Part shown: piece after piece, positions 2,925 through 52,180 of the stretch
How positions within the stretch are numbered: the stretch's first letter is position 1
Layout: every line of letters starts with the position of its first letter
From: a bacterium
GTDB taxonomy: Bacteria > Actinomycetota > Acidimicrobiia > Spongiisociales > Spongiisociaceae
Length of the DNA stretch: 54,892 bases
Assembly: GCA_028821265.1 (NCBI GenBank)
Contig: JAPPGU010000013.1
Coordinates: 1 to 54,892, forward strand
Reading direction: 5' to 3'
Position numbers and translations under genes: made by a program
Notes under the pieces: generated by a model
Told to the model about the DNA's origin: nothing
The model's input: only the letters and a program-made list of their open reading frames with translations
Database searches by the model: none

Positions 2925-3209
2925 ATGGCTCGGAGCCGTAAGAAGGGCCCGTTCGTGGACGAGCACCTCCTGAGGAAGGTGGAAGTCGCCAACAGCGCCG
3001 GCCACAAGCGGATGATCCGCACCTGGAGCCGCCGGAGCACCATCATCCCCGAGATGGTGGGCCTGACCATCGCTGTCCATGATGGCCGCCGCCACGTTCC
3101 CATCTACATCACCGAGCAGATGGTCGATCACAAGCTGGGCGAGTTCGCTCCTACCAGGACCTTCAGGGGACACGCCGGCACCAAGCGGGAAAAGGCTACG
3201 AGGCGGTAG
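2925..3209 (+). CDS. rpsS: 30S ribosomal protein S19
   Basis: The 94-residue protein has the S19 hallmarks: [13 protein letters not shown] at the start, [14 protein letters not shown] in the middle, and the C-terminal signature [17 protein letters not shown]19 forms a complex with S13 in the 30S head, near the A and P sites. It starts three bases after the rplB stop. Confidence 0.97.
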
Positions 3210-15247: not shown

Positions 15248-15598
15248 ATGCCCAGACCGAGGAAGGGCAAGCGCCTGGGCGGTGACCCCGCCCACCAGAA
15301 GGCCATGCTGGCGAACCTCGCCCAGTCCCTGATCTGGGACGAGCAGATCACCACCACCCTGACCAGGGCCAAGGTGCTCCGCCCCTATGTCGAGAAGATC
15401 ATCACCAAGGCCCGCCGCGGCGACCTCCATTCCCGCCGGCTGGTGCTCAAGGACCTGTCGGATCTAGAGGTGGTCACCAAGCTGTTCGACGAGGTCGCTC
15501 CAAGGTACCGGGAACGGCCCGGCGGCTACACGCGGATAGTCAAGATCGGCCCCCGCCGCGGCGACAACGCAGAGATGGCGGTCATAGAACTCGTCTAG
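15248..15598 (+). CDS. rplQ: 50S ribosomal protein L17
   Basis: The 116-residue protein starts [20 protein letters not shown] and has [19 protein letters not shown] and the closing [20 protein letters not shown], typical of L17. It is the last gene of the ribosomal cluster. The structured repeat element A begins just after its stop, so that element may form the 3' end of the operon transcript. Confidence 0.96.
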
Positions 15599-15612
15599 GC
15601 CGCGAGCCACCG

Positions 15613-15876
15613 GAAGAACGCGAAAATCGCGCCGCCAAACCGGTGCTCCGCACCGGGCCCTCCCCCACCACCACCACCACCTTTCCTGGTTCGGAGCGTG
15701 TTCGGCCATACCCGGCCGGCTGCCGGATTGCTCTGCCCCCGCTCCATGAGCCCTCGTATGTTCCCGTCGTCCGGCCGAACCGATCGGCAGGTGCCCTCGG
15801 CCGGTGTAGGTGCTTGGTGATAGACAACATATAGAAAGCCTGTGACACGTTTCAACCTTCCCGTCCGGGCAGCCGG
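15613..15876. repeat. Structured intergenic element, copy A
   Basis: This fills the 300-base gap between rplQ and the next gene. Order of parts: head GAACGCGAAAATCGC; hairpin 1 at 15640-15656 (CCGGTGC-TCC-GCACCGG); a C-rich CCACCACC tract; an outer stem GGAGCG (15693-15698) with CGCTCC (15740-15745) enclosing hairpin CCGGC-CGGCT-GCCGG (15712-15726); a long stem CCGGCCGA (15771-15778) with TCGGCCGG (15797-15804) enclosing palindrome CCGATCGG; GGTGCTTGG; then GTGACACGTTTCAACC near 15842-15857 and TCCGGGCAGCCGG. Copies B and C keep this plan with different bases in the stems. The strand of action is unknown. Confidence 0.75.
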
Positions 15877-15898
15877 GGTCGGCTGTTAGCTTGGCCGT

Positions 15899-16813
15899 AT
15901 GTCGACCGCGCTAGCAGGGCGATCCCGTACCCGGGTGCTACCCCTCAGCCGGGCGCTGGATCTCCGCGGAACCCTGGTGGTGAAGGGGCTGAAGGGTCCG
16001 TCGCTGCGGGCCGGGGCGGATGGCTTGTGGAGGGCCACCCGTACCGCTTCGGGGCCGGCCACGGTCCGGCTGCGGATCGAGGACCGGAGGCTGGTCGCCG
16101 ATGCGTGGGGGGAGGGGGCCGAACTCGCCCTGGAGCAGGTACCGGACTGGGTCGGCGAGGACGACGATCCTGCGGCGCTCGTCCCTGTGCATCCAGCCGT
16201 GGCGCGCGCGGCGAGGCGTGGACAAGGAGTGCGCATGCCGGCCGTCGGGGGGCTGGTCGAGGTCCTGATCCCGACCATCCTGGCGCAGAAGGTGACCGGG
16301 ATCGAGGCCGGGCGCAGCTACCGGCGGATGGCGGGACGCTACGGTGAGCCGGCGCCGGGGCCTACCACCTTGCTCCTGCCTCCGGACCCGGGCCGCCTGG
16401 CCGGGCTCCGGTACTACGACTTCCACCCGCTCGGGGTGGAGCGCCGCCGGGCCGAGATCATCCTCCGGGTGTGCCGGGACGCCGACCGTATCACCGCCAT
16501 CAGCGAGGGCAGCCTGGCCGGCGTGTACGAGTACCTCCACCGGATCCCGGGCATCGGTCCGTGGACCAGCGCCTCGGCGCTCGGAGTGGTGCGGGGCGAT
16601 CCGGATGCGGTTCCCGTGGGGGATTTCCATCTGCCCAATACCGTCGCCTGGGCATTGGCGGGAGAGCCGCGCGGGACGGATGAGAGGATGCTGGAGCTCC
16701 TGGCCCCCTACGAAGGCCAGCGGGGCCGGGTGGTGCGGCTGCTGGAACGCTACGCCGGTCGTGCCCCCGCCTACGGACCCCGGCTGCCGCCCCGGGACAT
16801 CCGCCGCCACTAG
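15899..16813 (+). CDS. DNA-3-methyladenine glycosylase II-like HhH-GPD protein
   Basis: The 304-residue protein resembles the AlkA branch of the HhH-GPD DNA glycosylases, which excise alkylated bases. The conserved helix-hairpin-helix reads YLHRIPGIGPWTSASALG (about residues 212-230), followed by the GPD loop GDPDAVPVGDFHLPN, whose last Asp is the expected catalytic residue. VEVLIPTILAQKVTGIEAG is the family's first core helix. The N-terminal 100 residues match the AlkA N-domain position only loosely. It faces a second AlkA-type gene on the other strand, 48 bases away. The exact lesion range cannot be told from sequence. Confidence 0.85.
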   Translation: MSTALAGRSRTRVLPLSRALDLRGTLVVKGLKGPSLRAGADGLWRATRTASGPATVRLRIEDRRLVADAWGEGAELALEQVPDWVGEDDDPAALVPVHPAVARAARRGQGVRMPAVGGLVEVLIPTILAQKVTGIEAGRSYRRMAGRYGEPAPGPTTLLLPPDPGRLAGLRYYDFHPLGVERRRAEIILRVCRDADRITAISEGSLAGVYEYLHRIPGIGPWTSASALGVVRGDPDAVPVGDFHLPNTVAWALAGEPRGTDERMLELLAPYEGQRGRVVRLLERYAGRAPAYGPRLPPRDIRRH

Positions 16814-37784: not shown

Positions 37785-38024
37785 ATGGGGAGCGAGAAGA
37801 GAGCCCGGCAGAAGCAGAACCGCCAGGCGCGCCTCGAGGAGGAGCGCCGTGCTGCTCAGCGGGCCAAATGGCGGCGCCGGATCACCACGGGGCTGGTACT
37901 GGTTGCGATACTTGTGGTGGTCTTCGTGGTCGGGAACCTGCTCACCGGCGACAGCGGCGCCGGCGTAGCGTCCACCACCGTCCCGGCCGTCACCGACACC
38001 ACCGCCGCACCGGGCGGCCCATAG
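37785..38024 (+). CDS. Short basic single-pass membrane protein, possibly truncated
   Basis: From ATG 37785 the protein has 79 residues: a charged coil (RARQKQNRQARLEEERRAAQ), one membrane helix (about residues 34-52, TTGLVLVAILVVVFVVGNLL) and a Thr/Ala/Pro linker that ends abruptly. This is the layout of the membrane anchor of actinobacterial cyclophilin-type peptidyl-prolyl isomerases, but the catalytic domain is missing. The structured repeat copy B starts 55 bases after the stop. It may be a decayed gene or a small protein in its own right. Confidence 0.6.
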   Translation: MGSEKRARQKQNRQARLEEERRAAQRAKWRRRITTGLVLVAILVVVFVVGNLLTGDSGAGVASTTVPAVTDTTAAPGGP

Positions 38025-38078
38025 GGACCGGGTTCCGGGTGGCCTAGTAGCCGAACACATGAGGGACCCCGAGACGTC

Positions 38079-38305
38079 GAGAACGCGAAAATCGCCGAAA
38101 CCCGCCGTCCCCGGCGGGCCCATCCCCCAGCCACCACCTCCTTCGGTCCGAGCGCGTTCCGCTATCCCCCGACGGGTCCGCTCCCAATCGATCCCAGTTC
38201 CGGTTCCCTCGACGTCGATTAGGTGAGAACCGGCGGTGCTTGTGACTGCCGTCCAGTATGCAAGTGGTGTGTGACAGTTTCAACCCCCTTGTCCGGGCGG
38301 CGGGA
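38079..38305. repeat. Structured intergenic element, copy B
   Basis: It lies in the 434-base gap before the PHP gene. Head GAGAACGCGAAAATCGCC at 38079; hairpin 1 CCCGCCG-TCCC-CGGCGGG at 38101-38118; C-rich CCACCACC tract; long stem CCGGTTC (38200-38206) with GAACCGG (38227-38233) enclosing palindrome TCGACGTCGA (38209-38218); GGTGCTTG; GTGACAGTTTCAACCC at 38271 and TCCGGGCGGCGGG. Hairpin 1 and the long stem use different bases from copies A and C but still pair fully. The middle hairpin is weaker here. The remaining 150 bases before the PHP gene hold only a small hairpin at 38423-38441. Confidence 0.72.
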
Positions 38306-38458
38306 CCATGCCACCACGACAGTCGGGTAATGGACGTAGCAAACAGAGGACTCGGGACCGGTTCTCGGCAGCGGACATCACCGGGACCTGCATGCCACGA
38401 CCAGCCCGACTCCTTACCGGCGCCCGATCCGAGGAATCGGGGTTAGCCTCATCTCCGG

Positions 38459-43777: not shown

Positions 43778-43886
43778 GGCACGTCCGGGGATTGCCCACG
43801 GAGGAGCCCGGTTCCCATCGGCTCCATCGATGGGTTCCCGAGCCTCAAGAACCCGAGAGACCGGCCGCGGCAACCGGTGCCCTGTT

Positions 43887-44100
43887 CCTCAGGCTCAGGG
43901 CGTCACCCATGGTGCCCTGTGCCTCAAGTTCCCGGCCCGAGGCCTTCTTGATGCACAGGGCGTCACCCATGGTGCCTCGTTCCTCAGGCTCAGGGCGTCA
44001 CTCATGGTGCCTCGTTCCTCAGGCTCAGGACGTCACCCATGGTGCCCTAAACCTGAGGATCAGGGCGTCATATATGACGCCCTCTACCTCAAGAATCGCC
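43887..44100. repeat. Tandem array of 35-bp and 60-bp hairpin units
   Basis: Units start at 43887, 43922 (60 bp), 43982, 44017, 44052 and 44087 (cut short). The 35-bp unit begins CCTCAGGCTCAGGGCGTCA; the 60-bp unit has a 25-bp insert after its first ten bases. Each contains GGGCGTCA-CCCA-TGGTGCCC, an 8-bp RNA stem with two G-U pairs; in the unit at 44052 it is the perfect palindrome GGGCGTCATATATGACGCCC. 35 is not a multiple of three, so this is not a coding repeat. It runs straight into structured element C. Confidence 0.8.
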
Positions 44101-44103
44101 AGG

Positions 44104-44335
44104 CGCCGAAAGTCGCGAAAAACCGATGCTCCGCATCGGGCCCCGCCCCCGCCACCACCCATCCTGTTGGAGCGTGGTCGGCCATGCCCGGCTGGATGCC
44201 GGGCCTCGGCTGTTCGCTCCATGAAGCCTTGTGTTCCCTCGGACCGGCCGTCCGATCGGTCTCACCTCATCGGCCGGTGTTGGTGCTTGGCGATAGGCAA
44301 CATATGGTGGGGATGTGACGGTTTCAACCCCTTGT
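44104..44335. repeat. Structured intergenic element, copy C
   Basis: Hairpin 1 CCGATGC-TCC-GCATCGG (44123-44139); CCACCACC tract; outer stem GGAGCG (44169-44174) with CGCTCC (44215-44220) enclosing hairpin CCCGGC-TGGAT-GCCGGG (44187-44203); long stem ACCGGCCG (44243-44250) with CGGCCGGT (44271-44278) enclosing palindrome CCGATCGG; GGTGCTTGG, CAACATAT; GTGACGGTTTCAACCC at 44315. It is most like copy A. A further head piece GAGAACGCGAAAAT at 44339 suggests a fourth, truncated copy. The last 100 bases before the tcuB end contain no gene I can support. Confidence 0.75.
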
Positions 44336-44520
44336 TACGAGAACGCGAAAATATTCTTCCGCACCAGGGTCACGACAAGGCCATGCCCTCCGCGACGAGC
44401 CGGATCGCGCAGCTGCCACGAACAAGGGAATTCGTGGAGGAGGCAACGACCTGATCGCCTAGTGGTCAATCCCGGATGACGCGGCTCCGGGACGATCGGT
44501 GACGCGCCACGCGGCGTGGA

Positions 44521-50791: not shown

Positions 50792-52180
50792 TCACCCGGA
50801 TGACGGGTCGGCGAGGCCGGTGCGGATCAGGCCGGCCCGCTCCAGCGCCTCCCCGATACCCAGCAGCACGTTCTCTCCCCACCACGGCGCCAGGAACTGG
50901 ACAGAGGGGGGAGGGGCGCCGGGATCGGTTGTCGGCAGGACGATGGCCGGGCATCCGGTCAGGTTCACGAGCGAGCTGTAGCCGTTCAGTACGTCCCGGT
51001 AGAAGTGGGGCTCACCGTCTATCGCCATGGTGTCGTTGCCGATGGTCTTGCGGGAATGGCCGACCGCCGGGGTGAGTATCAGGTCATGGTGACGGAAGGC
51101 TTCGCGGGCGGCCTGCTGGAGGGCCGCTCTCCGGCCCATCGACTCGGTGTATTGGTCTATTGTCACCTCCATAGCCGCCCCCAGGCGCACCTCGAGGTCG
51201 GGACCGTACGGCTTGTCAGGGTCGCTGAGCCACTCCCGATGCACGGCCGCCACCTCTCCGGCCACCACCGCCATGTATGTCGGATCGGGCACCAGGCCGG
51301 GGGCCTCCACCGGCTCGACATGGGCGCCCACGCTGCGGAGCCGGTCGCAGAAACCATCGAACGAGCGGTGCATGGCGGCGGAGGTGGGCGCCGCGGACAG
51401 CCAGCCGGCCGGCACTCCGACGCGCAGGTTCTCAAGCCGAGGAGCCCGATCCGGGGAATCGGGCGCCCGGGCCGACCGGGGATCCGCCGGGTCGAACCCC
51501 TTCATCGCGTCATACAGCAGGCGGGCGTCGCCCACCGTGGCGGTTATCGGTCCGACCGTGTCGAGGGAGCCCGCCACGGGGAACACGCCGGTCAGGGGGA
51601 CGGCGCCGTGGGTGACCTTCAGGCCGACCACACCGCAGAGGGCGGCGGGCACCCGCACGGATCCTCCCGTGTCGGTGCCGATCGCTCCCGCCGACATGCC
51701 GGCCGCCACGGCCGCCGCCGACCCGCCCGAGGACCCTCCCGGCGACAGGTCGCGATCCCACGGGTTGCGAACCGGCCCGAACCAGGGATTCTCCGACGAG
51801 AACCCGAACGCGAACTCGTGCAGTCCGGTCCTGCCGATGATGATGGCGCCGGCCGCCTCCAGACGGCGCACCACCGTGGCGGACGCCGTTGCCCTATGCC
51901 GGTAGAAGGCCGATCCGGCCGTGCTCACGTGCCCGGCGTGGTCGATCAGGTCCTTGAGAGCGATGGGTACGCCGCACAGCGTCCCGGCGGGCGATCCCTC
52001 CCGGAGCCCGGCATCGACCGAATCCGCCCGCTCCAAGGCCCCCGCCCGGTCGATCTCCACGAAGGCGTTGAGTTCCGGGTTGAGCCGCTCCGCCACCTCC
52101 AGGTATTGCTCCACCACCTGGCGGGCGGACCGGGTGCCGCTCCGGACGGCCTCGGCGATGCTGGCGCCGGTCCCGGGCAT
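50792..52180 (-). CDS. Amidase signature family protein
   Basis: From ATG 52180 (GTG 52183 just before it is possible) the protein has 462 residues. The Ser-cisSer-Lys triad is complete: Lys76 in IALKDLIDHAG, Ser151 in SPGGSSGGSAAAV, Ser174 in GTDTGGSVRVPAAL. It hydrolyses an unknown amide; a GatA role is less likely, since GatB/GatC genes are absent. It starts a few bases after the DUF3048 stop, so the two may be co-transcribed. Confidence 0.9.
   Translation of the reverse strand: MPGTGASIAEAVRSGTRSARQVVEQYLEVAERLNPELNAFVEIDRAGALERADSVDAGLREGSPAGTLCGVPIALKDLIDHAGHVSTAGSAFYRHRATASATVVRRLEAAGAIIIGRTGLHEFAFGFSSENPWFGPVRNPWDRDLSPGGSSGGSAAAVAAGMSAGAIGTDTGGSVRVPAALCGVVGLKVTHGAVPLTGVFPVAGSLDTVGPITATVGDARLLYDAMKGFDPADPRSARAPDSPDRAPRLENLRVGVPAGWLSAAPTSAAMHRSFDGFCDRLRSVGAHVEPVEAPGLVPDPTYMAVVAGEVAAVHREWLSDPDKPYGPDLEVRLGAAMEVTIDQYTESMGRRAALQQAAREAFRHHDLILTPAVGHSRKTIGNDTMAIDGEPHFYRDVLNGYSSLVNLTGCPAIVLPTTDPGAPPPSVQFLAPWWGENVLLGIGEALERAGLIRTGLADPSSG

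Follow-up and report, generated by a model that had tools for sequence, protein, structure and literature searches.

What kind of element recurs in this DNA, and from which strand is it read? In the window (the whole analysed stretch of 54,892 nucleotides), a sequence-only reading had reported three copies, A, B and C, of a structured element with one ordered plan, and the motifs and stems of all three could be located as it described them. Our answer is that the element is a new structured RNA family, and that its copies, judged by their sequence signals, would most likely be autonomous small-RNA genes, dozens per genome, on the minus strand.

The three copies are all real, but the scale is dozens per genome rather than three. 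A BLAST search with copy A against the 2.6-Mb genome of the window gave at least 40 matching places, A included, at E <= 2e-7; 40 of the 118 first-look candidates were scored and 40 of 40 matched, which makes 40 copies a minimum. When A, B and C served as local BLAST queries against the collected loci and the window, the matches merged into 42 stretches; 41 were kept (a 52-nt fragment in L035 was dropped). For the 11-mer GAACGCGAAAA, 55 occurrences were counted and none for the reversed control; its sites yielded more copies of the subtype of B. Because these sites, when read, show further copies of this kind, at least three subtypes are distinguished: type 1 (A and C), type 2 and type 3 (B). 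In the window, the 11-mer is found on the plus strand at the head of A (15616..15626; TTTTCGCGTTC on the RNA strand), at the head of B (38081..38091) and at the tail of C (44341..44351), where on the RNA strand it lies upstream of the -35 box. At five loci (L055, L058, L062, L071 and L072) GAACGCGAAAA is present with no full element seen alongside, so the 11-mer may be a remnant, or a DNA signal in its own right.

None of the 41 copies lies inside a gene as called by a simple codon-usage gene finder, an edge overlap of up to 60 nt being tolerated. The 49 type-1 bodies carry no coding signal, and their lengths spread over the three frames; their longest complete open reading frame is 20 aa on the RNA strand (median 0) and 42 aa on the other (median 16). 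A coding element is rejected for these 49 type-1 bodies, the RNA-strand frames being at most 20 aa.

The earlier proposal of a fold that persists through sequence change is borne out. The stems of the plan are present, although it had missed the closing helix: the CCACCACC tract pairs with GGTGCTTG and closes the fold, which on the RNA strand is closed by CCAAGCACC and GGTGGTGG. The covariance model R1, built on 49 type-1 copies (alignment A5), consists of this closing helix, the long-stem arm and the nested arm. In A5, four of five measures exceed all 500 shuffles; the number of further pair types, 16 against 14.7 in the shuffles (92/500), is not above chance. R1 also picks up type-2 and type-3 copies in the expected position and strand, some of them only at E > 0.05, the E-values of the model being rough (short calibration). 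In the window it places the structured body of A at 15671..15817 (minus strand, model positions 1-145, 131.5 bits by cmsearch), that of C at 44149..44290 (minus, 151.9 bits) and that of B, a distant subtype, at 38128..38243 (minus, 20.1 bits, E 0.018 and 0.037).

Alignment A7 holds 53 copies; relative to A6 it omits L065 and a row that was probably false (window 51297-51384, E 0.041), with little effect on the results. In A7, which leans toward the structure since it was fitted to that of the model, 91.3% of pair cells are standard, two-sided changes number 142 against 46.1 (sd 5.1) in shuffles, and the covariation score is 0.284 against 0.094 (sd 0.008), falling to at most 0.053 when the partners are slid by 1-3 columns. 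The partners of the long stem change together, as had been noticed from three copies: two-sided changes occur at 7 of its 7 pairs. RNAalifold, run on unguided alignments of the three subtypes, returned structures that were incomplete and disagreed with one another, with no strand signal; the helices were therefore fixed by hand. The RNA structure is conserved with compensatory changes.

The sequence-only reading knew of no named family with this plan, and the searches agree. At the curated gathering threshold of Rfam, only a tRNA matched in the window; at E <= 1, 9 + 7 loci gave two weak matches, both outside the element, which matches none of the 4227 families of Rfam 15 at the thresholds used. 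A known Rfam family is rejected on these results for the window and the 16 loci. In the open-licence PMC literature, none of the titles and abstract openings listed describes the element.

The covariance-model search of the genome and its relatives, proposed together with the three-copy plan, shows how far the family extends. By a neighbouring gene, the closest genomes that bear a name are MAGs of uncultured Acidimicrobiia. At E <= 0.001, R1 has matches in 12 of 59 genomes: all 10 of the genus, each with at least 27-47 copies, and two of a second genus, G010 (5 copies) and G013 (1), the one strong match of the latter being one that may reflect transfer or contamination (8%). At E <= 0.05, the counts are 37 in G009, 10 in G010, 2 in G013 and 0 in G011. 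A second model, R2, at E <= 1e-4 with stricter filters, has matches in 17 of the 138 genomes searched from the order, namely the 12 of R1 and five of a genus in another family (the distant set); these five have 8-21 copies per genome at E <= 0.02, with 1 in G011 and 0 in G012. The sets of the second genus and of the other family are divergent.

As to the strand, the earlier reader was probably wrong. Because promoter-like signals, and in C also a terminator-like one, lie on the minus strand, we read the copies as small-RNA genes on that strand. A promoter scan of A, B and C found exactly one site per copy, always on minus, with 0.0-0.2 expected from dinucleotide-keeping shuffles: TTGAAA, 18 nt, TATGTT in A (15826..15855, the sole such site on both strands of 15560-15910; 0.1 expected), TTGAAA, 17 nt, CATACT in B (38255..38283, sole in 38000-38350; 0.0 expected) and TTGAAA, 17 nt, TATGTT in C (44299..44327, sole in 44050-44400; 0.2 expected). 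The head and the end of the plan accordingly change their meaning: what had been called the "GTTTCAACC end" is probably the -35 box, and hairpin 1 with the "GAAAA head" would be the terminator side.

Promoter-like sites are found in most of the subtypes and lineages scanned, rarely in type 2 and not in G009; single-base shuffles served as controls, and the subtype scan left out one anchorless type-1 row, duplicates and truncated upstream stretches. A score of at least 8 of 12 is reached on minus by 45% of type-1 copies (n=58; plus 9%, shuffles 10%), so that 55% fail, and by 83% of type-3 copies (n=18; plus 0%, shuffles 4%), where three mis-anchorings by the script (B, L197 and L074) were counted as misses. 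Type 2 passes in 2/18 (11%; plus 6%, shuffles 8%). The pass rate is 7/10 in G010/G013 (shuffles 4%), 15/29 in the distant set (shuffles 10%) and 0/16 in G009 (shuffles 18%), with 0 on the opposite strand in each case; by eye, the -10 box of G009 is TACGTA. The spacer carries a GTC[ACG]C block in 8/10 copies of G010/G013, 27/29 of the distant set and 11/16 of G009. On the RNA strand, AGGGA[AT]CA is present in 71 of 82 copies and GGTGG[TCA]GG in 69 of 82; neither occurs on the complement.

The other end of the element is clearly terminator-like only in C, where hairpin 1 followed by TTTTT (44118..44139, minus) resembles an intrinsic terminator and is the sole such site (0.2 expected from shuffles). 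In A (CCGGTGC TCC GCACCGG on plus; 15640..15656, minus) hairpin 1 has a terminator-like position, and in B (CCCGCCG/CGGCGGG; 38101..38118, minus) it is read from the sequence; the terminator scan found none in these two copies, where the T run is not beside the hairpin. The pairs first quoted for hairpin 1 do exist in A, B and C, but by eye it is poorly kept among other copies of the subtype of B. Two copies of G010 (L322 and L330) show, by eye, long G+C hairpins ahead of TTTT; the L299 row was left out of this reading, the same copy being present in L087. Next to copy C lies an array of tandemly repeated 35-bp units (unit GGTGCCCTGTTCCTCAGGCTCAGGGCGTCACCCAT, with an internal palindrome; 43876..44070, no strand assigned). 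Similar 35-bp units adjoin at least 8 of 31 type-1 copies and diverged ones adjoin copies of G009, on the 3' side of the RNA wherever seen.

The loop of the long stem is self-complementary and switches its palindrome between copies. It is mostly CCGATCGG in type 1 and in G009; CGACGTCG, GGCGCC, GCGCGC and CGGTACCG are among the others. The long stem was located by script in 117 of 119 distinct sequences, and of these 117 loops, 105 hold a perfect palindrome of at least 6 nt, where shuffling gives 33.7, and 85 have one of at least 8 nt, where it gives 9.1; other windows of the same RNAs hold such palindromes in 12% and 6%, respectively. A loop that changes its palindrome and stays self-complementary suggests RNA dimers, and we consider homodimerisation through it probable.

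We presume, with reasonable though not full confidence, that every intact copy forms a complete small-RNA gene of its own on minus, and that a dimerising, trans-acting RNA is produced from many loci. The promoter would be TTGAA[A/C], 17-18 nt and TATGTT, TACGTT or CATACT, with GTCAC in the spacer, and would start an RNA of ~170-190 nt. This RNA would begin near CCAAGCACC, whose pairing with GGTGGTGG would close a two-arm junction; one predicted arm is the long stem with the self-complementary loop, the other a nested double hairpin, and AGGGA[A/U]CA would sit unpaired between them. A G-rich linker would follow, and after it hairpin 1 with a U run (TTTTCGCG), the probable terminator. The most likely mode of action is that the RNA dimerises via the palindromic loop, with AGGGA[A/U]CA left accessible to a partner. 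The genes themselves seem to have multiplied into intergenic space, mostly to stay put between close relatives, and to be homogenised or re-amplified within lineages.

The mode of spread can be judged from sites compared between genomes. For 55 copies of G000 set against 1.25 Mb of G003, both flanks were matched at 16, and at 14 of these 16 the element is present in G000 and G003 alike (profile matches in the gaps; four also aligned); at the other two, the element is missing from one genome with no clean empty site (L027) or the site is rearranged (L010). In G009, 18 of 18 sampled copies fall into one clade (support 0.98), with a mean identity of 90% among themselves and 67% to type 1 of G000. 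Both flanks of G009 loci were matched in the G000 and G003 stretches in 3 of 18 cases: two share the intergenic region with a G000 copy in the opposite orientation, and the third has a gap of ~70 bp at the G003 site. The shared sites of G000 and G003 and the single clade of G009 together indicate that copies are mostly inherited within the close group and were amplified or homogenised separately in G009. The site of copy A holds the element in six other loci and a truncated one in a seventh; around copy B, by eye, the element seems better conserved than the intergenic DNA about it.

Some single loci deserve mention. In one relative (L100 / L186), the copy A site keeps only the terminator-side part, ~155 nt being missing. 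In L182 (the same site in G006), the middle is C-like and the ends are A-like; gene conversion is the likely origin of this middle. L103 has a second, type-3-like copy (2974-3064) just downstream of the gene beside copy A. The gene after copy A (15899-16813, plus) gives a match to the HhH-GPD DNA glycosylase domain that stays below the Pfam cut-off (21.8 vs 26.2 bits).

These observations bear on the reading of the element as a MITE-like mobile element, in which the DNA ends matter and not the RNA, and the promoter-like and hairpin sequences are features of a transposon. We regard it as unlikely. It would fit short, intergenic copies in dozens with no visible reading frame, the head 11-mer and the 11-mer-like tail of 15 of 31 type-1 copies, as well as the homogeneous set that G009 has of its own, with few shared sites seen. 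However, no inverted repeat at both ends is common to A, B and C; each has one inverted pair at a differing place, and that of C spans 44095-44294, which are not the element ends. The sites compared show no clean empty site and no target duplication, the occupancy of 14 of the 16 informative sites in both G000 and G003 speaks against it, and the helices carry strong compensatory changes across genera. A Y1 transposase is found in 0 of 25 genomes, which likewise argues against mobilisation of this type. On the same count, a REP/RAYT or IS200/IS605 derivative, i.e., an element of the Y1 transposase, is rejected.

Next comes a structured RNA of the plus strand, for instance at mRNA 3' ends (a REP-like stabiliser or terminator), to which we give still less weight. 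Single-sequence folding is compatible with it: the two strands of copy C give similar folding scores (z -2.75 and -2.26), the minus strand of B folds no better than shuffles (z -0.18), and the lowest-energy folds of B and C differ from the consensus structure. The neighbouring genes of 38 copies also include 12 convergent and 3 divergent pairs (3 of the 41 copies miss a neighbour on one side and are outside this count). The remainder, with 13 pairs in the same orientation as the element and 10 in the opposite one, shows no bias, so the element leads no gene in a fixed direction; a 3'-end element would be hard to reconcile with this, or with promoter-like sites on minus in all three copies of the window and most subtypes. 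Loops that are palindromic only when G-U is allowed on the RNA strand (GGCGTC) number 8 in the distant set, against 0 that need A-C, as expected for a minus-strand RNA; in type 1 the ratio is 1 to 2. The strand evidence from G-U counts in the helices is weak: the fixed helices favour minus by 30 to 12, with 16 of the 30 from one pair and 14 to 11 without it; the helices fixed by hand earlier gave 43 (minus) against 15 (plus), a single outer pair contributing 16 of the 43; and unguided type-1 pairs common to both strands gave 7 against 8.

The lack of a fixed relation to genes decides against a cis-regulatory, riboswitch-like leader, which we hold to be very improbable: copy A does end just upstream of a gene start, but the placement of the RNA strand relative to the next gene varies, and Rfam gives no match to the element. 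The leader is rejected for want of a constant position upstream of a co-directional gene. That the element is a guide RNA for a TnpB-like nuclease, or the product of a retroelement, can practically be dismissed, although many dispersed copies of a structured RNA might recall either: the TnpB domain is absent from 9 of 10 genomes of the genus and reverse transcriptase from 7 of 10, the genome of the window among them in both cases, and the 3' part is shared among copies instead of being a variable guide. The TnpB guide RNA (TnpB in 1 of 10 genus genomes) and the retroelement (reverse transcriptase in 3 of 10) are rejected, neither protein being found in the genome of the window. Six TnpB-domain matches occur in G002 (loci L378 and L379), and none in the other 16 genomes searched.

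We therefore return to the minus-strand small-RNA gene. If transcribed, the family would be made from ~30 or more loci per genome; to our knowledge, such a gene dosage is unusual for a small RNA. Amplification of a small RNA together with its persistence, in the manner of mobile elements, would then become testable, and a compact natural RNA of less than 200 nt would be available with evolutionary evidence for homodimerisation. It is tempting to go further and propose a bacterial analogue of SINEs, comparable in its copy number and its autonomous expression: a gene for a dimer-forming RNA that multiplies as a complete transcription unit, its RNA under selection. Such a gene would have reached two or more families within a single order, and the search for Y1 transposase, TnpB and reverse transcriptase identified no enzyme that would mobilise it. 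We offer this only tentatively, as an idea that is more likely wrong than right.

Among known systems, sibling small RNAs usually have two to about ten copies, not dozens. The likeness to them (for example PMC9973317) lies in several near-identical small-RNA genes per genome. The structured RNA motifs from comparative genomics (PMC2864571) likewise have comparative support for a fold and often a function that is unknown; the element reported here lies outside all 4227 families of Rfam 15 at the thresholds used. OLE, ROOL and GOLLD resemble it in their symmetric kissing loops, which would correspond to the self-complementary loop here, and for L9.3 of OLE and L21a of GOLLD a switching self-complementary stretch was taken as evidence for intermolecular pairing; those are, however, large ornate RNAs, whereas the present one is below 200 nt, has dozens of copies and no Rfam match (PMC12286853). 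In the literature examined, the closest are the QMITE1 and QMITE2 sRNAs of Coxiella burnetii (PMC5896051), with dozens of dispersed copies of 150-400 bp. According to that paper, QMITE1 has sigma-70 promoters and some of its copies are transcribed as sRNAs; QMITEs carry terminal inverted repeats and direct repeats, and QMITE1 frequently overlaps genes and is reported to be apparently restricted to that species. Compared with QMITEs as described there, our element is without shared inverted ends, is intergenic, and has a fold that covaries across genera.
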